From assembly GCF_000829375.1 (NCBI RefSeq), contig NZ_AP014624.1:3844001-3908000 (forward strand): a stretch of DNA of 64,000 bases. Direction: 5' to 3'. The position numbers and the translations under genes were made by a program. Within the stretch, counting starts at the first letter, position 1. The number at the start of each line of letters is the position of its first letter. This DNA is from Chryseobacterium sp. StRB126 (lineage in GTDB: Bacteria > Bacteroidota > Bacteroidia > Flavobacteriales > Weeksellaceae). Below, piece after piece: positions 1-39,166 of this stretch. The notes beneath the pieces are model-generated. The model searched no databases. It worked only from the letters and a program-made list of their open reading frames with translations, and was not told the DNA's origin.

Positions 1-582
1 ATCGCAAAAGATGGTGTAGTTTCCCTTACCGGCATAGTCGACAGTTATGCAAAAAAAGTTGAGGCGGAAAATGCCGCAAAAAAAGTTGGCGGGGTTAAAG
101 CAATAGTTGAAAACATTGAAGTAAAGCTTCCAAGTTCATGGACAAAAGCTGATGCCGAAGTCGCAAAAGAAGTATTGGACGCCTTAAAATCCAATTATTC
201 TATTCCTGATGACAAAATAATGGTAAAAGTTGAGGATGGCTGGGTTACTTTAGAAGGTGAATTACCTTGGCATTACCAAAAAGAAGAGGTAGAAAAGGTA
301 GTAAAATATCTTACCGGCGTAAAGGGCTTGATCGACAAAATTAAAGTCAAATCAGAATTAGACGATGCAATACAAAAAAAAGATATTGAAGATGCACTGA
401 AAAGAAGCTCAATTTATGATAGTGAAATTAAAGTATCTGTTTTAGGAACTACAGTAACTTTAACCGGAACAGCAAATTCTTTATATCAAAAAGAAGAGGC
501 AGGCCGCATTGCCTGGAAAACTCGTGGTATATGGAATGTAAAAAATGAATTAGAAGTTAACTATGAGTATGATTTTTATTAA
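1..582 (+). CDS. BON-domain stress protein, 5' end outside window
   Basis: The reading frame is open from the first base and the N-terminus lies outside the window. Aligned with the complete paralogues at 2557 and 7236, about 25 residues are missing. Three BON-type units can be seen: the end of unit 1 (KDGVVSLTGIVDSYAKK), unit 2 (VEDGWVTLEGELPW) and unit 3 (GTTVTLTGTANSLYQKEEA). BON domains are small folds found in OsmY-like periplasmic proteins that bind membranes or lipid and are made under osmotic or stationary stress. This copy has no obvious signal peptide in its paralogues, so location is uncertain. An internal TTG at 175 could mimic a start, but homology runs upstream of it. A hairpin follows the stop. 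Confidence 0.9.
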   Translation: MAKDGVVSLTGIVDSYAKKVEAENAAKKVGGVKAIVENIEVKLPSSWTKADAEVAKEVLDALKSNYSIPDDKIMVKVEDGWVTLEGELPWHYQKEEVEKVVKYLTGVKGLIDKIKVKSELDDAIQKKDIEDALKRSSIYDSEIKVSVLGTTVTLTGTANSLYQKEEAGRIAWKTRGIWNVKNELEVNYEYDFY

Positions 583-2471: not shown

Positions 2472-2536
2472 TGATGTACATCATATTTCACCGTGATATG
2501 CATCATATTATATTCTCTATGGTTTTTGGAACTTTG
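2472..2536 (+). promoter_or_regulatory. tandem TGAT-N4-ATCA boxes and -7 element of BON gene
   Basis: Two boxes, TGATGTACATCA (2472-2483, a perfect palindrome) and TGATATGCATCA (2494-2505), start exactly 22 bp apart. A -7-like GAACTTTG ends at 2536, 42 bp after the start of the second box. If transcription starts about five bases after TTTG, the proximal box is centred near -41.5, the class II position of CRP/FNR activators. No TTG -33 element is evident, as expected for an activator-dependent promoter. The same layout recurs at 6686-6750, 7153-7217 and 10081-10145. The factor's identity is inferred. Confidence 0.75.
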
Positions 2537-2556
2537 AGATATAAATGTACAGCAAA

Positions 2557-3219
2557 ATGAAAACAAATGAAGAATTACAAAAAGATGTTCAGGATGCCAT
2601 CAAGTGGGAACCTATGTTACAATCAGCAGAAATTGGAGTTATTGTAAAGGATGGGATTGTTTCATTAACGGGTACTGTTGACAGTTACGCAAAAAAAATA
2701 CAGGCTGAACATACCGCAAAAAATGTTTTGGGAGTAAGAGTACTGATAGAAAATATCGAAGTAAAATTACCCGATCCCCGGGTAAAAACTGATATTGAAA
2801 TAGGCCAAGAGATTATTGCCGCATTCAAATCAAACACATTTATTCCTGAAGATAAAATAATCGCAAAAGTAGAAAAGGGATGGGTAGATCTGGATGGTGA
2901 AGTAGCCTGGAACTATCTGAGTGATATTACAGAAAATGCAGTAAAGTATCTTCCAGGGGTTAAGGGTATTTATAATAATATCATCATCAATCCCGAAATC
3001 GAAAACACCGTTGAAAAAAGTGATATTAAAAAAGCACTGAAGAGGAGCGCCATAGATGATAGTGACATTAATGTATCAGTATCGGGAGCCATAGTGACAT
3101 TAACCGGAACAGTACATACTTGGCAACAAAGAGAAGAGGCAGAACGTATTGTCTGGAAAACACCGGGCATACAAAAAGTGAAAAATGAATTACAGGTAGA
3201 TTATGAGTACAATCTGTAA
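2557..3219 (+). CDS. triple BON-domain stress protein
   Basis: A 220-residue protein with three BON units at about residues 1-70, 75-145 and 150-220 (KDGIVSLTGTVDSYAKK; VEKGWVDLDGEVAW; SGAIVTLTGTVHTWQQREEAERI). An ATG exists four codons upstream at 2545, but the paralogue at 7236 begins MKTNAQLQKSVQDAI, so MKTNEELQKDVQDAI is taken as the start. BON proteins of the OsmY type are linked to osmotic and stationary stress and to membrane binding. No signal peptide is visible, which suggests a cytoplasmic protein, unlike OsmY. Controlled by the paired TGAT boxes just upstream. Confidence 0.92.
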   Translation: MKTNEELQKDVQDAIKWEPMLQSAEIGVIVKDGIVSLTGTVDSYAKKIQAEHTAKNVLGVRVLIENIEVKLPDPRVKTDIEIGQEIIAAFKSNTFIPEDKIIAKVEKGWVDLDGEVAWNYLSDITENAVKYLPGVKGIYNNIIINPEIENTVEKSDIKKALKRSAIDDSDINVSVSGAIVTLTGTVHTWQQREEAERIVWKTPGIQKVKNELQVDYEYNL

Positions 3220-3297
3220 TCGCTACTAATTTTTAAAGTTCCGGGCTATAAATTTTCACTTATCATTTTGTGAATATTTCTAAAAAATAGTGGATAG

Positions 3298-4086
3298 TTG
3301 AACTATATAAAACATCACAGTGTGGAAAGATATTTAAAAAAGCAGCTTACTCTTGTAGGTAGTATAACTTCATTCTCTCTCCGTTTTTTTAAAGAAATTT
3401 TTAAGCCGGGGTTTGAGTTTAAAGAGTTTATAAGACAATGCTTTACTGTTGGCTACCAGTCTTTACCGCTGGTTACGATAACAGGATTCATCATGGGACT
3501 GGTACTTACTATACAATCACGCCCTACTATGGCAAGGTTTGGAGCCGAATCCTTAATCCCCAGTATGGTTTCTTTGTCATTAATAAGAGAGATCGCCCCG
3601 GTAATCACAGCATTGATCTGTGCAGGAAGAGTCTCATCAGGTATTGGAGCAGAACTGGGTTCTATGAAAGTCACCGAACAAATTGATGCCATGGAAGTAT
3701 CTGCCATCAATCCCTATCGCTATCTCGTGGTAAGCAGAACCCTGGCCACAACATTAATGATCCCTCTCTTAGTAATTTATACTGATTTGATCGGAATAAT
3801 TGGCGGTTTTATTGGGCTTAATATGCATAGCGAAAGTAATTTAGTGCATTATTTTTCTCATGTTTTTGAATCCCTCGAATATGTAGATATACTGCCGGCT
3901 ATTATAAAAACTTTTTTTTTCGGTTTCTTCATCGGGATTATTGGATGCTATGAAGGATTTAATGCTTCAAGCGGGACAAAAAGTGTAGGAAAAGCAGCAA
4001 ATTCAGCAGTTGTTTTAGCCTCACTTATGATATTTATCATTGATTTGATAGCAGTACAGATAACCGACCTATTTTTTGAATTATAA
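3298..4086 (+). CDS. mlaE: MlaE-type lipid ABC transporter permease
   Basis: Inner-membrane permease of a retrograde phospholipid (MCE) transporter. It shows the MlaE/YrbE pattern: several hydrophobic segments and the conserved RVSSGIGAELGSMKVTEQID coupling region (about residues 106-125), plus IGCYEGFNASSGTKSVGKA near the end. There is no ATG at the N-terminus; the TTG at 3298 is used, with GTG at 3322 as the alternative. The stop overlaps the ATG of the ATPase gene by one base (TAATG), so the two are coupled. Length 262 matches the family. Confidence 0.9.
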   Translation: MNYIKHHSVERYLKKQLTLVGSITSFSLRFFKEIFKPGFEFKEFIRQCFTVGYQSLPLVTITGFIMGLVLTIQSRPTMARFGAESLIPSMVSLSLIREIAPVITALICAGRVSSGIGAELGSMKVTEQIDAMEVSAINPYRYLVVSRTLATTLMIPLLVIYTDLIGIIGGFIGLNMHSESNLVHYFSHVFESLEYVDILPAIIKTFFFGFFIGIIGCYEGFNASSGTKSVGKAANSAVVLASLMIFIIDLIAVQITDLFFEL

Positions 4087-4865
4087 TGAAGAATACTGAA
4101 AATTTGCCTGCCGTGAATGATCAGCCGGCAGCTGTTGCACCCCTGATAGAATTTAAAAATGTCTATAAATCTTATGGAAACAATAAGGTTTTGAACGGCA
4201 TAAGTTTTACGATTGAAAAAGGAGAAAATCTTATCCTATTGGGAAGATCGGGTTCGGGTAAATCTGTAGCTGTTAAATGCCTGGTAGGACTCACTAAAGT
4301 TGACAAAGGAAATATAATCATAAAGGGAAAAGATATCACAAAACTCAATGAGGATGAGCTTAACCAGATCCGAATGAAAATTGGCTTCCTATTTCAAAAC
4401 GGAGCCTTATATGACTCCATGACTGTGAGAGAAAATTTAATCTTTACATTACAGCATAATAATAAGAATCTCACAGATCAGGAAATGGAAGCTGCCGTTA
4501 TAGAAGCATTGCAAAATGTAGGATTAGAAGAGGTTATCGATCAATTGCCGGCAGAACTGTCCGGCGGAATGAGAAAAAGAATAGGATTGGCAAGAGCATT
4601 AATTATTAAACCGGAAATCATCATTTATGATGAGCCTACAGGAGGATTAGATCCTATTACAGCTCGTGAAATCATTGATCTTATCCGAAACATCAAAATT
4701 AAATACAATACTGCCTCTATTATCATAACCCATGATCTGATTTGTGCAAAGTACACCGGTGACAGGATTATAGTACTGAAAGATGGCATCATTAAAGCTG
4801 AAGGCAGTTATAATGACATAGAAAACAATACTGATAATTGGGTAAAATCTTTTTTTGAAAAATAA
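4086..4865 (+). CDS. mlaF: MlaF-type lipid transporter ATPase
   Basis: ABC ATPase that powers the MlaE permease on the cytoplasmic face. Walker A is GRSGSGKS (about residue 54), the signature is LSGGMRKR, Walker B is IIIYDEPTGGLDP, and the switch histidine lies in IITHD. The 259-residue length is normal. It is preceded by mlaE with a one-base overlap and followed by mlaD after 11 bp, so the three form one operon. Confidence 0.92.
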   Translation: MKNTENLPAVNDQPAAVAPLIEFKNVYKSYGNNKVLNGISFTIEKGENLILLGRSGSGKSVAVKCLVGLTKVDKGNIIIKGKDITKLNEDELNQIRMKIGFLFQNGALYDSMTVRENLIFTLQHNNKNLTDQEMEAAVIEALQNVGLEEVIDQLPAELSGGMRKRIGLARALIIKPEIIIYDEPTGGLDPITAREIIDLIRNIKIKYNTASIIITHDLICAKYTGDRIIVLKDGIIKAEGSYNDIENNTDNWVKSFFEK

Positions 4866-4876
4866 ACATAACAGCC

Positions 4877-5935
4877 ATGAGTAATGAATCATCAAACAAC
4901 TGGAAATTGGGAATTTTTGTCACAATAGGTGTTCTCCTTTTTATAATTACCGTCTATTTTATTGGGGTGAACAGAAACCTGTTTGGCTCTAATTTCGTTC
5001 TGCGTTCAGAGTTTAAAAATGTCAGCGGGCTAAAGCAAGGCAGTACGGTTCGTCTATCCGGAATTAACATCGGAACAGTCAGCAAAATAGATTTTGTTTC
5101 AGATTCATTGGTTCTGGTAAAGCTATTAATCGAAAAGGATGTTCAGAAATATATAAAAACTGATGCTGTTGCCAGTATAGCATCAGACGGGTTAATGGGC
5201 GATAAAATTCTTATTATTTCTCCCGGTACCACTTCCACTACCATCGTGAAGGATAATGATATGATTGCCTCTTATAAAACTATTGAAATAGACGATATCT
5301 TTTCCAGTGTAAAGAAAAGTGCTGATAATACAAAAGCAATTACCGATCAGCTTGTTGAGTTCAGTGCAAAAATGAATAACAAAAATAGCCTGTTGACAAA
5401 AATAATGACCGATCAGGATTTTGCGGCAAGAATAGACAAAACAATAGAAAATCTGCAAACGGGTTCCAACGAACTGGTACAGTTCACCACAAAATTGAAT
5501 AATAAAAACGGAACTGTTGCAAAAATATTTACCGATACAAAATGGGCGGACAATATTGAAAAAAGCATTTCTAACCTACAAAAAAGCTCTGGTGAGATAA
5601 GTATTTTCACTTCAAAACTCAATAACAAGAATAATATACTCTCTCAATTATCATCCAACGACACGCTGGCAATTTCATTGGATAAAACCATCCGCAACCT
5701 TGAAAAAAGCTCCGATGAGCTCATAAAATTCACGTCAAAAATAAATAATGACGAGAATGTTTTATCTAAACTCATTAACAATCCTAAACTTGGAAAATCT
5801 GTGGATTCTACCATCGTTAATATTGAAAAAGGGGTCGGTGAATTGAGAGAAATAGAAGCCGCCGCCAAAAATAATTTTTTACTGAGAGGTTATTTCAATA
5901 AAAAGAAAAAAGAAGCCGAAAAACAAAAAAGATAG
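4877..5935 (+). CDS. mlaD: MlaD-type MCE protein with four 41-residue repeats
   Basis: Substrate-binding MCE component of the lipid transporter, anchored in the inner membrane. A single membrane segment (about residues 10-31) is followed by an MCE domain (about 38-120: FKNVSGLKQGSTVRLSGINIG). After it come four back-to-back 41-residue repeats at about 159-199, 200-240, 241-281 and 282-322, each with (L/I)xxF(S/T)xKxNN near its start and xIxNxxxxxxE at its end. They probably form a helical extension across the periplasm. A basic tail (KKKKEAEKQKR) ends the protein. The E. coli protein is only about half this length. Confidence 0.9.
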   Translation: MSNESSNNWKLGIFVTIGVLLFIITVYFIGVNRNLFGSNFVLRSEFKNVSGLKQGSTVRLSGINIGTVSKIDFVSDSLVLVKLLIEKDVQKYIKTDAVASIASDGLMGDKILIISPGTTSTTIVKDNDMIASYKTIEIDDIFSSVKKSADNTKAITDQLVEFSAKMNNKNSLLTKIMTDQDFAARIDKTIENLQTGSNELVQFTTKLNNKNGTVAKIFTDTKWADNIEKSISNLQKSSGEISIFTSKLNNKNNILSQLSSNDTLAISLDKTIRNLEKSSDELIKFTSKINNDENVLSKLINNPKLGKSVDSTIVNIEKGVGELREIEAAAKNNFLLRGYFNKKKKEAEKQKR

Positions 5936-5973
5936 TTAATAGCAGATATAAATTTTATATAAACGAAATGAAC

Positions 5974-6534
5974 TTACTCGTTATTTTTTATTTTAGGCTT
6001 AATTTCATTCATATACATCGATAGACTTTCTTCAATACAAGAAAAAGCTTCCTTTTTGCCTTTGATCCCAAATACCTTTACGGTTTTTCCCTCCAATTTT
6101 TTATATTCTTCAAAAAAATTCTGAATCTCATTTCTGGTATAAACAGGAATGTTTTCAATATCTTTGATATGCTTCAAGGATGAATCATTTTCGGCCACCG
6201 CCAGTATTTTATGATCCTTTTTGTCTTCATCGGTCATTTCCATGATCCCAACAACTCTCGCATTCACCACAGTTAACGGTACGAGACTTTCTGAACATAA
6301 AACAAGAATATCTAATGGGTCTCCATCAGTGTAATAAGTCTGCGGGATAATACCATAATTGGCAGGATAATACATGGAAGAAAAAAGAATTCTATCTAAT
6401 CTGATGAATCCTGAGACCTTATCAATTTCATATTTCGTATGACTACCGCTGGGTATTTCAATAACAGCCGTTACTATTCGAGGAATATCGTCTCCTGGAG
6501 AAACATCATGCCATGGGTGCTGGTTTCCAATCAT
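5974..6534 (-). CDS. ppa: soluble inorganic pyrophosphatase (family I)
   Basis: Hydrolyses pyrophosphate to phosphate, pulling biosynthetic reactions forward. The signature YTDGDPLDILVL, with its metal-binding aspartates, lies at about residues 68-79, just after YPANYGIIPQTY. The ExxxGxxxKYE-type N-terminal region reads EIPSGSHTKYEID. Length 186 is usual. It converges on mlaD across a 38-bp gap. Its promoter appears to lie about 150 bp upstream, with the same paired-box layout as the BON genes. Confidence 0.93.
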   Translation of the reverse strand: MIGNQHPWHDVSPGDDIPRIVTAVIEIPSGSHTKYEIDKVSGFIRLDRILFSSMYYPANYGIIPQTYYTDGDPLDILVLCSESLVPLTVVNARVVGIMEMTDEDKKDHKILAVAENDSSLKHIKDIENIPVYTRNEIQNFFEEYKKLEGKTVKVFGIKGKKEAFSCIEESLSMYMNEIKPKIKNNE

Positions 6535-6586
6535 TATTTCTATATTATATGGTTAAATTGATCTTTCATTACTTTTCAGTTAAATG

Positions 6587-6617
6587 AAGGGTACCCCTCA
6601 AGAGAGTACCCTTTTTT
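6587..6617 (+). terminator. intrinsic terminator-like hairpin in ppa leader
   Basis: An 8-bp stem AAGGGTAC/GTACCCTT with an 11-nt loop is followed on the plus strand by a run of six T. No plus-strand gene ends here, so it may stop antisense transcription into ppa, or act as a hairpin in the long ppa leader when read on the minus strand. Confidence 0.5.
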
Positions 6618-6685
6618 GTAAGAAAAATGTTTCAAACAAAGATTACATATTCAGTGAAGTTTTCCTGGTTCTGAATTTATTACTG

Positions 6686-6750
6686 TAAATTTCCAAAATA
6701 TCTTATTGATAAATAATGACTTTGATCATTTAAAAACATGATATTGCTAA
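6686..6750 (-). promoter_or_regulatory. paired TGAT-type boxes and -7 element of ppa
   Basis: On the minus strand a box TGATCAAAGTCA (6717-6728) starts 42 bp before the end of a -7-like GAAATTTA (6686-6693). A second, weaker box TTAGCAATATCA (6739-6750) lies 22 bp further upstream. Both distances equal those in the BON promoters, which is the main support since the boxes themselves are imperfect. The predicted start would leave a leader of about 147 nt. Confidence 0.6.
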
Positions 6751-6845
6751 ATCAGATAAAAATGAGTTATCAGCCACTACCCTTTTCTGTAAAATTATTT
6801 GATGCTTAATTATGTCTTAACTCTCCTATTTCTTTTTATTAATAT

Positions 6846-7088
6846 AACCCGAGTTCGGGATCATAAAATTAAGGATAATAGGCTGGAAGCTGGAAGAGAG
6901 AGGCTGGAAGTTACTATCGGAACTACAATTTCTGACGTTGCCGTAAAATTTGATGAAGCAGTCTTTAAAGGAATAATACATTACAGAGTTGTAAGTGTTT
7001 TTTTAACCTCAGCTCACTTTCCTCTCCCAGTTCCAGGCTTCCTTACTTACTAAAAACAGAAATGTCTTATCCCGAACTCAGGGTAAAT
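6846..7088 (+). repeat. interspersed palindromic-end repeat, copy A
   Basis: Begins AACCCGAGTTCGGGATCATAA and ends with TCCCGAACTCAGGGT, so the ends are imperfect inverted repeats. The interior contains GGCTGGAAG motifs and ACAATTTCTGACGTTGCCG, shared nearly identically with copies at 7899, 13762 and 38940. No transposase frame is inside; an open frame from 6799 is a by-product. It resembles a MITE-like non-autonomous element. Confidence 0.8.
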
Positions 7089-7152
7089 AGACTATTAAAA
7101 ATAAACATTATATCATTGAATCTAAAACCAATAAAGATTAAATTTTCATATC

Positions 7153-7217
7153 TGATCAGTATCAAATTTCATCGTGATGCATATCATAGTATTTTCTACA
7201 AAGTTTCTGGAATTTTG
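7153..7217 (+). promoter_or_regulatory. tandem TGAT-N4-ATCA boxes and -7 element of BON gene
   Basis: TGATCAGTATCA (7153-7164) and TGATGCATATCA (7175-7186) start 22 bp apart, and the -7-like GAATTTTG ends at 7217, 42 bp after the start of the second box. The spacing is identical to that of the BON promoter at 2472-2536, although the sequence between the boxes has diverged. Confidence 0.75.
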
Positions 7218-7235
7218 GATAAGAAATAACATATT

Positions 7236-7901
7236 ATGAAAACAAATGCCCAGCTACAAAAAAGTGTTCAGGATGCCATTACATGGGAACCATTATTACA
7301 CGCTGCAGAAATTGGAGTTACCGCAAAAGACGGTGTGGTTTCTCTTACAGGAATTGTTGACAATTATGCCAAAAAAATTGAGGCGGAGAAAGCTGCAAAA
7401 AAAGTAATTGGAGTAAAAGTATTAGTAGATAATATTAAGGTAAAAATTCCAAATTCCTCATCAAAGACCGATATTGAAATTGCTGATGAAATTGTTAAAG
7501 TTTTTAAATCAAATGTATTAATTCCTGAAAATATGATCAAAGTAATTGTTGAAGACGGGCAAGTAACTTTAGAGGGTGAAGTGCTGTGGGATTATCAAAG
7601 GGAAATGACAAAAAACGCACTCTACTATCTTCCAGGAGTGAAGGCCATCATCAATAATATTAAAATCAAATCAGAAATAATAGATGCTATTAAACAAAAA
7701 GATGTTGAAAATGCAATGAAAATGAACTGGGTGGTGTATGATAGTGATATCCATATAAAAGTAGCCGGCACCACCGTTACTTTAACAGGAACTGTAAATT
7801 CCTGGCATCAGAAAGAAGAAGCTGGTCATATTGCCTGGAAAACTCCGGGAATACAACATGTGGAAAATAATTTATTTGTTGATTATGAATATTCTAAATA
7901 A
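7236..7901 (+). CDS. triple BON-domain stress protein
   Basis: A 221-residue paralogue of the proteins ending at 582 and 3219, with the same three BON units (KDGVVSLTGIVDNYAKK, VEDGQVTLEGEVLW, AGTTVTLTGTVNSWHQKEEAG). The three copies share most residues of each motif, so they come from local duplication. Its stop codon TAA coincides with the first bases of repeat copy B. It has its own paired-box promoter and is followed by a strong terminator at 8172. Role by family: envelope or osmotic stress protection; no signal peptide is seen. Confidence 0.92.
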   Translation: MKTNAQLQKSVQDAITWEPLLHAAEIGVTAKDGVVSLTGIVDNYAKKIEAEKAAKKVIGVKVLVDNIKVKIPNSSSKTDIEIADEIVKVFKSNVLIPENMIKVIVEDGQVTLEGEVLWDYQREMTKNALYYLPGVKAIINNIKIKSEIIDAIKQKDVENAMKMNWVVYDSDIHIKVAGTTVTLTGTVNSWHQKEEAGHIAWKTPGIQHVENNLFVDYEYSK

Positions 7902-8117
7902 CCCGAGTTCGGGATCATAAAATTAAGGATAATAGGCTGGAAGTTACTATCGGAGCTACAATTTCTGACGTTGCCGTAAAATTTGATGAAGCAGTCTTTA
8001 AAGGAATAATATATTACAGGGTTGTAAGTGTTTTTTTAACCTCAACTCACTTCCCTCTTCCAGCTCCAGGCTTACTTACTAAAAACAGAAATGTCTTATC
8101 CAGAACTCAGGTTAAAT
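7899..8117 (+). repeat. interspersed palindromic-end repeat, copy B
   Basis: Same element and orientation as copy A but lacking one internal GGAAGAGAGAGGCT stretch. Its left end overlaps the BON stop codon (TAACCCGAGTTCGGG), and its right end reads CCAGAACTCAGGTTAAAT. Confidence 0.8.
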
Positions 8118-8171
8118 AGTTCATTTATTTGTCTGTTTATACAAATCGTGACATGAATATCGAATAAAAAC

Positions 8172-8201
8172 AAAAGACTGTCCTTTTCAGACAGTCTTTT
8201 T
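8172..8201 (+). terminator. intrinsic terminator of BON transcript
   Basis: A perfect 11-bp stem AAAAGACTGTC/GACAGTCTTTT with a 7-nt loop ends in a T run. It lies about 270 bp after the BON gene, on the far side of repeat copy B. Confidence 0.75.
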
Positions 8202-8257
8202 AAAGTCTCATCTATTGTATAACCAACAAATGCAATCATATAAAGGTTTCTTAAAAC

Positions 8258-8358
8258 CTAGCAAGGCTTTTCAGACAACCTCTTAGCGGCATTCATAGCA
8301 GCTATAAAGGTTTTGAACACATTTTTGGTGAGTGGCCGATTATGAAATCTTGAATTCT
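8258..8358 (-). pseudogene. C-terminal coding remnant, unknown gene
   Basis: On the minus strand a frame without start reads RPLTKNVFKTFIAAMNAAKR and then LSEKPC before a stop at 8258-8260. The alanine- and lysine-rich run looks protein-coding, whereas the DNA on either side does not. It may be the tail of a lost gene, possibly a transposase, but I cannot assign a family. Confidence 0.25.
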
Positions 8359-8405
8359 AAATCAAGATAGAATAGATCAATTTAGATTTTTGAACAAGAT
8401 ATCTA

Positions 8406-8630
8406 TTAATAAAGGATTCTTTCATCCCATAAGTTTTTAAAAATTATACTTGAACGTATAACAACATTGTCTTCAAAAAGCAGATATTGGTATTTTCTTT
8501 GCCAGCGATAACTTCTGCCCAGATATAAAAACCATTCATCAGAATTAAAATCGTATTTTAAATCTTTTTTTACTATTTCTAAAACCTCTTTTTTGGTTTT
8601 GCCGGCAAGATGGTTATATATTTTCTTCAT
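8406..8630 (-). CDS. 74-residue hypothetical protein
   Basis: A small charged, aromatic-rich protein (MKKIYNHLAGKTKKEVLEIV..., then DEWFLYLGRSYRWQRKYQYLLF). No domain is recognised, and there is no signal peptide or membrane segment. The composition is coherent with a real protein. It stands alone between a terminator and a secreted-protein gene on the same strand. Confidence 0.55.
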   Translation of the reverse strand: MKKIYNHLAGKTKKEVLEIVKKDLKYDFNSDEWFLYLGRSYRWQRKYQYLLFEDNVVIRSSIIFKNLWDERILY

Positions 8631-8819
8631 AATATGAAAAACGACAGCCAGACTAGATCTGTAAATAGACCCTTACAAACTACTAACTGGCTGAAGGTAT
8701 AATTAATTAAATAAAAGGTATCCAAAAAAGTCATACTGTATTGTTACCCATTGCAGGCTAGTACATCAACAATTTCGCACTACCATACACAGAGTAATAT
8801 AGGCTTCAATGCAGCAGAA

Positions 8820-9971
8820 TTAATCTTTTGCCTGAGAAATCCGCGTTATGCTGTCTATCGTTATATCCATTGCTGTATCAGATTTTATTTTAAAAGTGTA
8901 TCCACTGCCTATAGATAAAGAATCAGCAACAGTAACCAGATAAAAAACTAGATTTCCCGTAGTTACACCGTTTGGCGCAATAGCTGTTTGGTCAATAGAA
9001 AATGTTGAAGGAGGAACCGGGTTTAATAAATTAATTGTAACAAATCCTACAGAACCATTATTTTTATTGCTGTAACTTGCAATAACCCGCCATGTATGAA
9101 CTTGCCCTGCAATAGGATTTTCTAAAAATCGGCCATTCGTCTGATTATATATATCTCCTACAACAGGAGTTCCAATATTTTCTGGCCAGCTGGTTGTAGG
9201 AGAAGAGGAAAAATCCGTCAGAATATTTACAGGGCCCTGATAGGCAATATTTTCATACGTATTCAGAGGAACCCCACCAGAGGTTTTAAATGCAAATGTA
9301 GGTTTTACTCCGGCTCCGCTATTCATCTTAACAACTCCTTCATTAGCTGTTGTTAATGTTTGTGAAGAAATAACGGTACTCCACTGAATCCCATTAAAGT
9401 ATCTCAACGTTTTATTGGTAGAGTCATAAATAATCATTCCGCTCACAGGTGAGTTTACATTAGCCGGAGGGTTTGCATTTCTGGGCAATACAATGGTAGA
9501 GTTAGCAGATGAAACATCAAGAATACCTTGCGGCGTTGTTGTTCCTATTCCAATTTTACCATTAGTATCTATTCTCGCTATTTCCGTGGCATTTGTTTTA
9601 AAAACCAAAGGCTGCAGATTAGTAGTTCCGATAAAGTCTGTAGAAGAAATAGAATTCCCGTTTGTTTTCCAGACCGGAGATAAGGATGAATTCAATGTCT
9701 GTGAATCTGTTAGCTTAGTCCAAATAGTACCATTACTGATATAAACACCTGGAGTTACATCATTAGCCGTCGCCGTGTTGTACACTAGCATTCCGGCATT
9801 AAATACTCCCGAACTTGTAGAGTTTAAGGCAACTCTATTCAACAGAAGACCTTTATTGGTTGATGCTAATTCAAGATCTGAATTAGGATTTGGTGTTGTT
9901 GTATTTATTCCAACTTGGGAAAAATACAAACTAGAGAAAATGATCCCGATAAATAAATTAAATCTTTTCAT
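8820..9971 (-). CDS. secreted protein with QVGIN...LDV-type repeats
   Basis: A 383-residue exported protein. An N-terminal signal peptide (MKRFNLFIGIIFSSLYFSQ) is followed by QVGINTTTPNPNSDLEL, and the same pattern returns near residue 140 as GIGTTTPQGILDVSS and then GMIIYDSTNKTLRYFNGIQW. This N-terminal family is typical of Chryseobacterium surface proteins and resembles repeats of tail-fibre-like proteins. The C-terminal half has no recognised domain and no clear type IX secretion signal. The only promoter signal upstream, at 10081-10145, has the paired-box layout of the stress genes and would give a leader of about 105 nt. Confidence 0.8.
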   Translation of the reverse strand: MKRFNLFIGIIFSSLYFSQVGINTTTPNPNSDLELASTNKGLLLNRVALNSTSSGVFNAGMLVYNTATANDVTPGVYISNGTIWTKLTDSQTLNSSLSPVWKTNGNSISSTDFIGTTNLQPLVFKTNATEIARIDTNGKIGIGTTTPQGILDVSSANSTIVLPRNANPPANVNSPVSGMIIYDSTNKTLRYFNGIQWSTVISSQTLTTANEGVVKMNSGAGVKPTFAFKTSGGVPLNTYENIAYQGPVNILTDFSSSPTTSWPENIGTPVVGDIYNQTNGRFLENPIAGQVHTWRVIASYSNKNNGSVGFVTINLLNPVPPSTFSIDQTAIAPNGVTTGNLVFYLVTVADSLSIGSGYTFKIKSDTAMDITIDSITRISQAKD

Positions 9972-10080
9972 GGTTGTTTTTTTATGGTTAAATTAATACA
10001 CAGCATAATTCACTAGTATTAAATCACTTATTGCGAATACAATAGTTCATACAGTGACTGCTTCTATTTTAAATACATGA

Positions 10081-10145
10081 CAAATTTATTAGTGAGCTGA
10101 TGACCAGAAAATGATACAGATCATTGATGAACATGATCTCCATCA
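10081..10145 (-). promoter_or_regulatory. tandem TGAT-N4-ATCA boxes and -7 element
   Basis: Boxes at 10112-10123 (TGATACAGATCA) and 10134-10145 (TGATCTCCATCA) start 22 bp apart. Read on the minus strand, a perfect TAAATTTG (TAnnTTTG consensus) at 10081-10088 ends 42 bp from the upstream edge of the proximal box. Box spacing and promoter distance equal those of the BON genes. It points toward the secreted-protein gene ending at 8820; no start codon followed by a useful frame lies in between. Confidence 0.7.
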
Positions 10146-10146
10146 A

Positions 10147-10347
10147 TTATTCACCAAGAAATGAATAATAAACTAAACCATGTAAGGTTTTGTTATTTCC
10201 AGCACTATTCTTCCGTTGATATGCTCCTTCTTTCGTCTCTTCAAATACGGCATTGGGATCTTCAGGCCGGACCGCTTTAACGGTTGCCTTTACTTTCCGG
10301 TGGAAGGCAAATACAATGGCTTGCTCCCTATCTTTACTTGTTCCCAC
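10147..10347 (-). CDS. possible 66-residue protein or gene remnant
   Basis: A frame starting with GTG encodes a basic 66-residue sequence (KDREQAIVFAFHRKVKATVK, then EDPNAVFEETKEGAYQRKN). Codons are richer in G and C than in the surroundings (for example gcg gtc cgg cct), which suggests either a transferred fragment or a decayed gene. No domain is recognised. Its 3' end abuts the paired boxes at 10112-10145. Confidence 0.35.
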   Translation of the reverse strand: MGTSKDREQAIVFAFHRKVKATVKAVRPEDPNAVFEETKEGAYQRKNSAGNNKTLHGLVYYSFLGE

Positions 10348-10511
10348 AATTAAGAATTTTAGAAATGGAACAGGGGTGAGTTTTGCTAAGGAAAATTATT
10401 AAAATTAATACCACAAAGGCATAAAGAGGATAAATTTTAAGACTATGGCAGTGATTTCATTTTAAAATGCTTGTAACCACTAAATCCTTTTTATTTCAAT
10501 GATTTGAATCT

Positions 10512-11387
10512 TTAAAAAGGCAAGTTTCCATTTTCAGGAATTATTAATAAGGGAATTTGCAACTGATCGGCTTGTCTGGCTGCATGGCTGCTATTCATTA
10601 AACGATCAAAAAAACCTCTGTGCTGATGCCCCATTATTAACATATCAATATCTTTTTCTTTCAATATGTCTAAACCATCATCTATATTCTCACTGTAAAT
10701 ACAGTTATAACAGATGTTCCCGTCTAGATTTTTAAAAAAAAATTCTTTTTTATGCTCATACGATTGGTCTTCTATACTATCATTGGCATTCAACGAAATA
10801 TAAGTAATCAAAAGTTCAGCATTAAAATACTTGGCAAATTCTATTAATGATTGAGCTGTTCTGACGTCTTTTTTATTCATATCCGTAGAAAAAGCAATTT
10901 TTTTCAACCCTTTATATTGATGGTCTGATGGAATTAAAAGAAGCGGATATTTTGTATTTTTAATCATTCTAACACTGTTGCTGCCAAAGATAAAACGGGT
11001 AATTGTTCCCGATCCCTGCATGCCCATCACGATAAGTAAAGTGTTATTATTGTCTGCTGTATTATTAATTACATAAACAGCATCACCTGCTTTGCATGAA
11101 TAAGATATTGAAGGATGAAAAGAAAATGTATCTTCTCTCCATAAAACCCTTCCTTTATCTTCCAGTGCGTTAGCCAGCTTTTTTAGTTCTCTGGTATTTC
11201 CTTCCATAAGTTCAGGATAAGCATCTAATGGCCAAGAAACCTGACCAAACATCGGGTCTTCTGCCGGCAGCGTAAAGGCATGACATAATTCAATATTCGC
11301 TTTCAGAGTATTACCCAAATGTAAGGCATAATATGCCGCATTTTTGGATGGTTTTGAAAAATCGGTGGGCACCAAAATTGTTTTCAT
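10512..11387 (-). CDS. universal stress protein, two tandem UspA domains
   Basis: A 291-residue protein with two UspA folds (about residues 1-145 and 155-285), each opening with a beta strand (KTILVPTDFSKPS; KKIAFSTDMNKKD). The first domain keeps the ATP-binding pattern G-2x-G-9x-G-S in GMQGSGTITRFIFGS. The second has GHQHRGFFDRLMNSS, where the second glycine is replaced, so it may not bind nucleotide. Cytoplasmic stress-survival role by family. Its promoter carries the stress-type box at the same distance as in the BON genes. Confidence 0.92.
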   Translation of the reverse strand: MKTILVPTDFSKPSKNAAYYALHLGNTLKANIELCHAFTLPAEDPMFGQVSWPLDAYPELMEGNTRELKKLANALEDKGRVLWREDTFSFHPSISYSCKAGDAVYVINNTADNNNTLLIVMGMQGSGTITRFIFGSNSVRMIKNTKYPLLLIPSDHQYKGLKKIAFSTDMNKKDVRTAQSLIEFAKYFNAELLITYISLNANDSIEDQSYEHKKEFFFKNLDGNICYNCIYSENIDDGLDILKEKDIDMLIMGHQHRGFFDRLMNSSHAARQADQLQIPLLIIPENGNLPF

Positions 11388-11517
11388 TGCTGTATCTTAT
11401 TTTATATTAATTTTCTCTTCCAAAACATTATCAAAATGATCCCTATTTTTATAAAATACAATTTCCTTTTTTATTAAAAATGTCCGAAAGACTTTCATGA
11501 TCTGTAATTTAATACTG

Positions 11518-11582
11518 TAAATTTCCTAATTATAATAAGTATAGATAATGATCAAAGTCACAAAAAAAAATGACTTAATTAA
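11518..11582 (-). promoter_or_regulatory. usp promoter with TGAT-type box
   Basis: Read on the minus strand, a -7-like GAAATTTA (11518-11525) ends 42 bp after the upstream edge of a box at 11549-11560 (plus-strand sequence TGATCAAAGTCA, the same word as in the ppa promoter). A weak second box, TGACTTAATTAA, lies at 11571-11582, 22 bp away by start. The TACTGTAAATTTCC core is shared with the ppa promoter. The box overlaps the first codons of the Nramp remnant. Confidence 0.55.
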
Positions 11583-13761: not shown

Positions 13762-13987
13762 ATTTAACCTGAGTTCTGAATAAGACATTTTTGTTTTTAG
13801 TAAGGAAGGAAGCCTGGATCTGGGAGAGGAAAGTGAGTTGAGGTTAAAAAAACACTTACAACCCTGTAATGTATTATTTCTTTAAAGATTGCTTCATCAA
13901 ATTTTACGGCAACGTCAGAAATTGTAGCTCCGATAGTAACTTCCAGCCTATTATCCTTAATTTTATTATCCTGAACTCGGGTTATTT
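13762..13987 (-). repeat. interspersed palindromic-end repeat, copy C
   Basis: The same element as copies A and B in opposite orientation: TTAACCTGAGTTCTGAATAA at the left, and CTGAACTCGGGTTATT at the right. The interior matches copy D closely. It separates fbaB from the minus-strand SDR gene. Nothing else is seen between 13542 and 14045. Confidence 0.8.
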
Positions 13988-15626: not shown

Positions 15627-16433
15627 TTAAGCAATTTCAGAAGTTGTAGTTCCATATTTCAGCTTGAACGAAGAATAGAAGTGAGATAGATTTTCAAATC
15701 CCAGATCAAGGTAAAAATGGGTTGGTTTCTGCTTCTTATATTTAATGAGATGGTATGCTTCCTCTAAACGCTTATCTTTGATCCATTGTTTTGGCGGACA
15801 ATTGAATACTTTTGCAAAGTCACGCTTAAAGACAGAAATACTCCTTCCTGTTAGCTTGGCAAAAGTTTCCAGAGGAACATTGAACATATAATTATTGGTC
15901 ATAAATTCTTCCAGATCAATTGCATAGGGCTTTGAAAAATCAAACAGAATATATTTAAAATCTGGATTACTGTCAAAAAGCAACTCGATGGCTTCCCTGA
16001 TCTTTAAATCGGCCAATTTGGGTGTAGCCTGCTTTGTTTTATTGATATACGGAGCCAATGACATAAAGTAACTATGTAAAAATTCATTGGGTTCAAAAAA
16101 TAATTTCTGTTTCCCATTATAACGCTCCTTAATCGCAATCTTATTTTCTAAGGCATACTGCTGTAAAGTTTCTTTATCCAATGTAATCGCAATAAATTTA
16201 TAGTTCCCAGATTTTGAAGGGTATTTAATGGTACGGATCAACTGGTTTTTCCTAACCAGCACCACAGTATTTTCCTTGATCGTTATTGAGCCCTGTTCAT
16301 GGAATGCCTGCGTCTCACCGGCCAGCTGAAACCCCAAAAAATGGTCAGGATAGAATTCCTCTGTCCCGCGCTGTGTTTCATAAATGCATGAATACACCAA
16401 CTTGTCAAAAATCATTTCTCGTGAAGATTCCAT
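15627..16433 (-). CDS. AraC-family transcriptional regulator
   Basis: A 268-residue regulator. The N-terminal half is a cupin-like sensing region (about 20-120), and the C-terminal third (about 170-265) carries the two AraC helix-turn-helix motifs, seen in LETFAKLTGRSISVFKRDFAKVF and in LGFENLSHFYSSFKLKYGTT. It is flanked by the GlcG-like gene upstream (15 bp) and the membrane protein downstream, a compact unit. Effector unknown. Confidence 0.85.
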   Translation of the reverse strand: MESSREMIFDKLVYSCIYETQRGTEEFYPDHFLGFQLAGETQAFHEQGSITIKENTVVLVRKNQLIRTIKYPSKSGNYKFIAITLDKETLQQYALENKIAIKERYNGKQKLFFEPNEFLHSYFMSLAPYINKTKQATPKLADLKIREAIELLFDSNPDFKYILFDFSKPYAIDLEEFMTNNYMFNVPLETFAKLTGRSISVFKRDFAKVFNCPPKQWIKDKRLEEAYHLIKYKKQKPTHFYLDLGFENLSHFYSSFKLKYGTTTSEIA

Positions 16434-38939: not shown

Positions 38940-39166
38940 ATTTAACCTGAGTTCGGGATAAGACATTTCTGTTTTTAGTAAGGAAGGAAGCCTGGAGCAG
39001 GGAGAGGGAAGTGAGCCGGGGTTAAAAAAAACACTTACAACCCTGTAATTTATGATTTTTTTAAAGACTGCTTCATCAAATTTTACCGCAACGTCAGAAA
39101 TTATAGCTCCGATAGTAACTTCCAGCCTATTATCCTTAATTTTATGATCCCGAACTCGGGTTATTT
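38940..39166 (-). repeat. interspersed palindromic-end repeat, copy D
   Basis: Ends TTTAACCTGAGTTCGGGATA and ATCCCGAACTCGGGTTATTT; the interior matches copy C with few changes and copies A/B in reverse. It fills the space between the glycosyltransferase gene and the convergent antiporter gene. Confidence 0.8.

Follow-up and report, generated by a model that had tools for sequence, protein, structure and literature searches.

Promoters with an exact tandem-box layout mark a probable low-oxygen regulon in Chryseobacterium sp. StRB126 and other Bacteroidota

Promoters of the stress-gene cluster share one layout

The stretch of DNA analysed here, referred to as the window (64,000 nt, genome bases 3844001-3908000 of Chryseobacterium sp. 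StRB126, whose genome is one contig of 5,503,743 bases), holds at its left end part of a gene cluster whose promoters carry two TGAT-N4-ATCA-like boxes with starts 22 bp apart, the upstream edge of the gene-proximal box lying 42 bp before the end of a -7 element. The -7 promoter element of Bacteroidota is TAnnTTTG. On the plus strand the layout precedes the BON1 gene (2557..3219; Pfam BON), where the promoter spans 2472..2536, with boxes at 2472 and 2494 that both match at 8/8 positions, the -7 element GAACTTTG at 2529-2536 and spacings of 22 and 42, and the BON2 gene (7236..7901; Pfam BON), where the promoter spans 7153..7217, with boxes at 7153 and 7175, again both 8/8, and the -7 element GAATTTTG at 7210-7217. 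Three further promoters lie on the minus strand. That of a secreted-protein gene (8820..9971; no Pfam match) occupies 10081..10145, its two 8/8 boxes starting at 10145 and 10123 and its element TAAATTTG ending at 10081. The promoter of ppa, encoding an inorganic pyrophosphatase (5974..6534; Pfam Pyrophosphatase), occupies 6686..6750 and has a 6/8 distal box (TTAGCAATATCA), a 7/8 proximal box (TGATCAAAGTCA) and the element GAAATTTA ending at 6686. The same element, GAAATTTA, is found at 11518-11525 in the promoter (11518..11582) of usp2, a universal stress protein gene (10512..11387; Pfam Usp), where the proximal box TGACTTTGATCA (11549-11560, 7/8) stands at 42 and the distal box (11571-11582, 5/8) is weak. 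The initial annotation of this DNA had placed all five promoters correctly, and had described the usp promoter just so, with a proximal box at the common distance and at best a weak distal one.

A composite score, taking in the two boxes and the -7 element, was scanned over the whole window together with the stretch to its left (L069, in which base p is genome base 3824000+p), 84 kb in all. Twelve matches scored at least 17. Nine of these fall in a cluster of ∼17 kb: the five above and, left of the window, the promoters of hsp20 (L069 14195-14259, minus), orf142 (L069 14633-14697, minus), the L,D-transpeptidase gene with usp1 (LDT-usp1; L069 19365-19429, minus) and BON0 (L069 19523-19587, plus). 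All nine have a TAnnTTTG-like element at 42, the first T being replaced by G in six and the last base being A in two. The remaining three matches, further right at window positions 16108, 16141 and 29343, score exactly 17 and are likely chance. The ppa promoter scores 18; usp2 scores 17, as do these three, and the spacing controls cover scores of at least 18 and at least 19. In those controls, 64 wrong spacings were applied to the first 34 kb. At a score of at least 19 they gave 0.016 matches on average (maximum 1), where the true layout gave six; at 18 or above the average was 0.45 (maximum 3), where the true layout gave eight. The layout is commoner than chance, and the shared 22/42 spacing is confirmed as a real observation.

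Of the other cluster genes, BON0 (1..582, plus) is cut in its 5′ part by the window edge, its reading frame running on from L069. The left-hand neighbourhood also contains hsp20, usp1, the L,D-transpeptidase gene and genes for a beta-CASP RNase-like protein and a B12-dependent ribonucleotide reductase; a PfkB-type kinase is likewise among the cluster genes.

The tandem pair is rare in the genome

The initial annotation had called for a genome-wide scan, and in it box pairs with starts 22 bp apart and at most one mismatch proved to be restricted to this cluster. The exact TGAT-N4-ATCA pair occurs at three places in the genome, all in the cluster, and the single place with one mismatch is also there, its start 478 bp beyond the left edge of the window. 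Four further places, with two mismatches, all lie outside the cluster. The same pattern read backwards occurs nowhere in the genome at up to two mismatches. A single box with NAnnTTTG ending at 42 has five exact matches genome-wide, four in the cluster; the fifth (2934317) adjoins another cNMP gene (place 2934617). Looser matching gave 49 sites with at most one mismatch (5 in the cluster) compared with 6 for the reversed pattern, a control that differs from the true pattern in word content, and 610 compared with 238 at up to two mismatches. Because of this last ratio the loose matches carry little weight, and both sets were put aside as evidence.

A receiver-CRP/FNR fusion and a FixL-like kinase are encoded beside the promoters

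The initial annotation had postulated a CRP/FNR-type activator encoded elsewhere. The type is well supported, but the likely activator is encoded just 4.3 kb left of the window (L069:14695-15747, minus strand). This protein, termed REC-CRP, joins a receiver to cNMP_binding and HTH_Crp_2 domains. Scores of 70.3 bits for cNMP_binding (cut-off 27.5) and 67.1 bits for HTH_Crp_2 (cut-off 27) place it in the CRP/FNR superfamily, and its receiver (Response_reg, 93.6 bits, cut-off 30.2), whose pocket residues E10, D11, D54 and K106 are invariant in 16 homologues, has the features of a two-component response regulator. In an alignment with an FNR structure, its recognition helix IETVSR falls opposite VETISR. 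The alignment with FNR starts at FNR residue 47, with the receiver domain standing in front. REC-CRP fails the curated models for Fnr (NF008365, 88.9 bits, cut-off 228) and FixK (NF050806, 87.7 bits, cut-off 300). The first score, together with the replacement of the N-terminal Fe-S region by a receiver, rules out FNR proper, and the second rules out FixK. The host genome encodes 45 cNMP-domain proteins. Inspection of their C termini by eye indicated that five, REC-CRP among them, are winged and that 40 end with the recognition helix; some 40 wingless proteins is a large set.

Directly upstream of REC-CRP on the same strand lies a gene for a kinase with PAS, HisKA and HATPase_c domains (L069:15769-16977, minus). 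Its PAS part matches FixL structures (best 1dp6, E 3.2e-29), with the His of HDGYL and the Arg of IIGKGR aligned, residues that we take to be the haem ligand and the oxygen-contacting Arg. The kinase thus has a FixL-type PAS fold with both residues in place, although it scores only 160.8 bits against the curated rhizobial FixL model NF041777 (cut-off 850). By this resemblance it is a putative haem-based oxygen sensor.

The layout recurs at REC-CRP loci across Bacteroidota

Two samples of loci were drawn from other genomes. From the order we took the best-scoring 40 of 51 near-full-length REC-CRP loci other than the window's own, leaving out second copies in G138 and G276 and taking in G241. 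From named genomes we took the best 80 of 533 relatives, of which 74 were kept (five loci were short and one, from C. populi, was a duplicate); these include Pedobacter, Mucilaginibacter, Flavobacterium, Dyadobacter, Pontibacter, Chitinophagaceae and others. Spacing maps at a score of 19 peaked in both at (22,42), with 50 matches in the 40 loci (0-12 in other cells) and 156 in the 74 (0-26 in other cells), and the larger cells off the peak mostly retain 22, 42 or their sum of 64 and so form part of the true layout. Counts made over 115 loci without the composite score gave the same spacings. Box pairs matching at no fewer than 15/16 positions were most frequent at 22 bp, with 67 pairs (61 of them mutually dissimilar) where other spacings averaged 1.1. 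Exact boxes were followed by TAnnTTTG 57 times at 64 bp and 23 times at 42 bp (48 and 21 dissimilar), against a mean of 0.6 elsewhere.

The comparison with related species that had been proposed at the outset shows the 22/42 layout recurring, in 212 promoters from 90 of the 115 loci. Their profile has the half-site TGAY/RTCA with the base outside it free and an A-rich stretch before the distal box; since the boxes and the element were selected for, only the remaining positions are independent evidence. The FNR consensus is TTGAT-N4-ATCAA, so the likeness to an FNR/CRP pattern noted initially stands for the core but not for the outer base. A TTTG -33 element was not seen: at any one offset between proximal box and -7 element it occurs in at most 5 of the 212 promoters. 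A downstream open reading frame accompanies 190 of the 212, at a median of 30.5 bases past the element.

Among the targets, relatives of orf142 (D-2-hydroxyacid dehydrogenase domain proteins) are commonest with 23 promoters, followed by Hsp20 (21), Usp (19), BON (14), the cbb3 oxidase genes ccoNO (12) and PAS kinases of the cluster's type (10). Smaller numbers precede a group without Pfam match (6), lipoprotein-like proteins (5), P-type ATPases of more than one kind (5), DoxX (4), RIC-type proteins (2), REC-CRP itself (2) and hemN (1), and 37 are singletons. Labels were checked on representatives, of ten groups or single targets by Pfam and of four by NCBIfam; the remaining labels come from similarity to cluster genes or from reading of the sequence. 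In L091, L093, L094, L095, L096 and L101, from other families of the order, tandem boxes were seen by eye before ccoN or a gene for a YceI-like small secreted protein.

A PAS-containing match to the kinase was present in 97 of 114 loci, adjoining REC-CRP on the same strand in 91, and in the alignment the haem His column holds His in 92 of the 97 kinases. These adjacency and alignment counts were used in preference to two others: a pattern search for the haem residues (48/97), judged too strict, and a FixL match in 39 of 40 loci, which took in any BLAST match.

Sites and regulator occur together

The genus survey covered 173 genomes. REC-CRP was matched with E no higher than 1e-60 in 31 of them, in G423 only partially, which makes the cluster accessory. 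Tandem boxes with a -7 element and at most one mismatch were present in 27 of these 31 and in none of the 142 others (Fisher p 1e-27; related genomes are treated as independent in this and the p value below, which are therefore not literal); at up to two mismatches the counts were 31/31 and 13/142. The one-mismatch limit gives 59 sites, of which 55 have a REC-CRP gene no more than 20 kb away on their contig; the four exceptions comprise two on contigs other than that of the gene, one at a distance of 27 kb and one at 493 kb. The accompanying survey took in L084 and L011, two of the four winged CRP/FNR proteins besides REC-CRP, the others being L009 and L033. L084 was matched in 163 and L011 in 171 of the 173 genomes; being near-universal in the genus, they do not track the sites.

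Across 395 genomes of the order, exact tandem boxes occurred in 13 and the reversed pattern in one. REC-CRP was matched at E 1e-30 in 51 of these genomes, near full length in 48, and eight of the 13 are among the 48 (p 2e-5).

A FixL to REC-CRP pathway as the probable basis of the layout

The suggestion made initially was that a CRP/FNR-type activator, working from a class II-like position, controls a stress or low-oxygen regulon. Comparison of sequences (linkage, domains and targets) makes this well supported, with the amendment that the likely activator is not a plain FNR but a receiver fusion encoded beside a FixL-like kinase. Our preferred reading, to which we give a probability of roughly 0.8, is that the layout belongs to a low-oxygen regulon running from the FixL-like kinase to REC-CRP, with tandem class II-like operators; the boxes would be the operators of the REC-CRP encoded just left of the window. 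The haem-PAS kinase would sense falling oxygen and phosphorylate the receiver domain of REC-CRP, whose CRP/FNR part, judging from linkage and recognition helix, would bind as one dimer to each TGAY-N4-RTCA box. From the proximal box, with its upstream edge 42 bp before the end of the -7 element, a dimer could activate from a class II position at a promoter devoid of a -33 element. A second dimer 22 bp upstream would be on the same face of the DNA, because 22 bp is two helical turns, and probably aids by cooperative binding. Protective and maintenance functions would be controlled in this way in StRB126, namely Hsp20, Usp, BON, pyrophosphatase and L,D-transpeptidase, joined by the beta-CASP RNase-like protein and the B12-dependent ribonucleotide reductase if these are co-transcribed with hsp20; in other Bacteroidota the cbb3 oxidase and related genes would be added. 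Since the sensor next to the regulator gene resembles a haem-based oxygen sensor, the system probably represents a widespread low-oxygen response in this phylum.

Several observations weigh against this reading. The distal boxes of the usp2, ppa and LDT promoters are weak. Neither of the host genome's two ccoN genes has the layout (both upstream regions were checked), the second having a single 7/8 box (TGATGAATGTCA) upstream and no -7 element at 42. Linkage of sites to regulator is partly inheritance together, because both share one accessory cluster. Only 72 of the 97 kinases retain both the haem His and the Arg. Outer REC-CRP groups have E-x-x-I-R in place of E-x-x-S-R, so that the helix alone cannot single out REC-CRP, and winged L084 and many short CRP proteins also read E-x-x-S-R; uniqueness of the recognition helix was accordingly dropped as an argument. 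Lastly, five of the 13 order genomes with exact tandem boxes (G004, G042, G188, G218 and G344) have no REC-CRP match at E 1e-30, and in G004 and G188 a tandem site with TAnnTTTG at 42 precedes ccoN (by eye). These five suggest that other CRP/FNR proteins can use the layout.

A separate core CRP/FNR protein, of the L011 or L084 type for example, might then read the boxes, with REC-CRP merely on the same island. The five genomes and the helix of L084 fit this, as does the position of L011 ∼2.8 kb from one ccoN gene; yet homologues of both proteins are near-universal in the genus while sites at the one-mismatch limit are absent from all 142 of its genomes that lack REC-CRP, and we consider such a division of roles quite unlikely. 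Somewhat less improbable is that REC-CRP is the regulator but responds to a signal other than oxygen, such as nitric oxide or redox state, the PAS domain or haem having a different role. RIC-type repair genes, which are tied to nitric oxide damage, are among the phylum targets, and the incomplete conservation of the two haem residues points the same way. Against it, the PAS domain of the cluster kinase matches FixL with both residues kept, and cbb3 oxidase and hemN are among the targets elsewhere in the phylum.

The exact spacing itself could also have been inherited from recent promoter copies without selection. The spacers of the BON0, BON1 and BON2 promoters are indeed alike (24 of 33 bases identical between BON1 and BON2), as are those of LDT, ppa and usp2 (25, 22 and 21 of 33 in pairwise comparison), and a weak likeness links the secreted-protein promoter to ppa (17/33, p 0.004) and to hsp20 (15/33, p 0.011). 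The initial view that sequence between the elements is not conserved is thus only partly right, failing within these two groups of three, and several window promoters look like mutual copies. The argument for independence was for this reason drawn from further gene families and genera rather than from the window by itself. There the mutually dissimilar pairs at 22 bp and box-to-element sites at 64 and 42 bp far exceed those at other spacings, which makes copying without selection very improbable.

How a FixL to REC-CRP pathway would fix the 22-bp distance is a matter for a more tentative proposal. REC-CRP could act as FixJ and FixK in one protein, its receivers joining neighbouring DNA-bound dimers, so that receiver contact sets a 22-bp ruler and phosphorylation assembles the pair on DNA. 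We regard this as possible rather than likely; tandem boxes in the five genomes without a REC-CRP match count against receiver-receiver contact alone setting the distance.

Comparison with known oxygen-responsive systems

The rhizobial oxygen cascade is FixL-FixJ-FixK. The system described here has in common with it a FixL-like PAS kinase, a final regulator of CRP/FNR type and, in the phylum, cbb3 oxidase and hemN targets. It differs in joining receiver and CRP/FNR parts in one protein where the cascade has FixJ plus FixK, in its tandem operators and many stress-protein targets in Bacteroidota, and in that the cluster proteins fall under the NCBI cut-offs for rhizobial FixL and FixK. With proteobacterial FNR it shares the helix (E-T-V-S-R in REC-CRP, E-T-I-S-R in FNR), the TGAT-N4-ATCA core and a class II-like position, but REC-CRP has a receiver instead of the Fe-S sensor region and the outer T of the half-site is not conserved. 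A resemblance to the mycobacterial DosR regulon lies in one cluster bringing together genes for Hsp20, Usp, a PfkB-type kinase, a putative haem kinase and a B12-dependent ribonucleotide reductase; here, however, pfkB and nrdJ count as neighbours rather than as established targets, and the output domain of REC-CRP is HTH_Crp_2 where that of DosR is of NarL type, which rules out identity with the DosR system. By analogy, the REC-CRP system would work like FixLJ-FixK and FNR without being FNR proper, FixK or DosR.

To our knowledge, little is known of oxygen-responsive regulators in Bacteroidota. With a regulator, a putative sensor, an exact operator layout and likely targets in many genera to hand, low-oxygen control in the phylum becomes open to direct testing, and activated promoters that use the -7 type element can be recognised by their layout.

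Further features of the cluster

In Chryseobacterium G339 two copies of the REC-CRP cluster were found, on contigs 37 and 53 (L132 and L133), with regulators 96% and 87% identical to REC-CRP of StRB126. The product of orf142 (L069:14235-14663, minus) corresponds, like its relatives, to an isolated piece of a D-2-hydroxyacid dehydrogenase domain; the relative at L192:11130-11588 matches PF00389, and orf142 itself has no Pfam match. Between the usp2 promoter and usp2, a 33-residue reading frame (window 11397-11498, minus) begins ∼20 bases past the -7 element. The ppa leader (window 6535-6682, minus, ∼150 nt) contains a strong hairpin that, read on the opposite strand, resembles a terminator with a T run after it; its overall folding is not exceptional (z -1.87; 11 of 200 shuffles equally good). 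A repeat of ∼220-250 bases with ends CCGAGTTCGGGAT and ATCCCGAACTCAGGG, resembling a miniature mobile element, is present at window 6844-7090 and 7898-8119, flanking the BON2 gene with its promoter, and the repeat core has four matches in the window, including 13887-13927 and 39066-39106, both on the minus strand.

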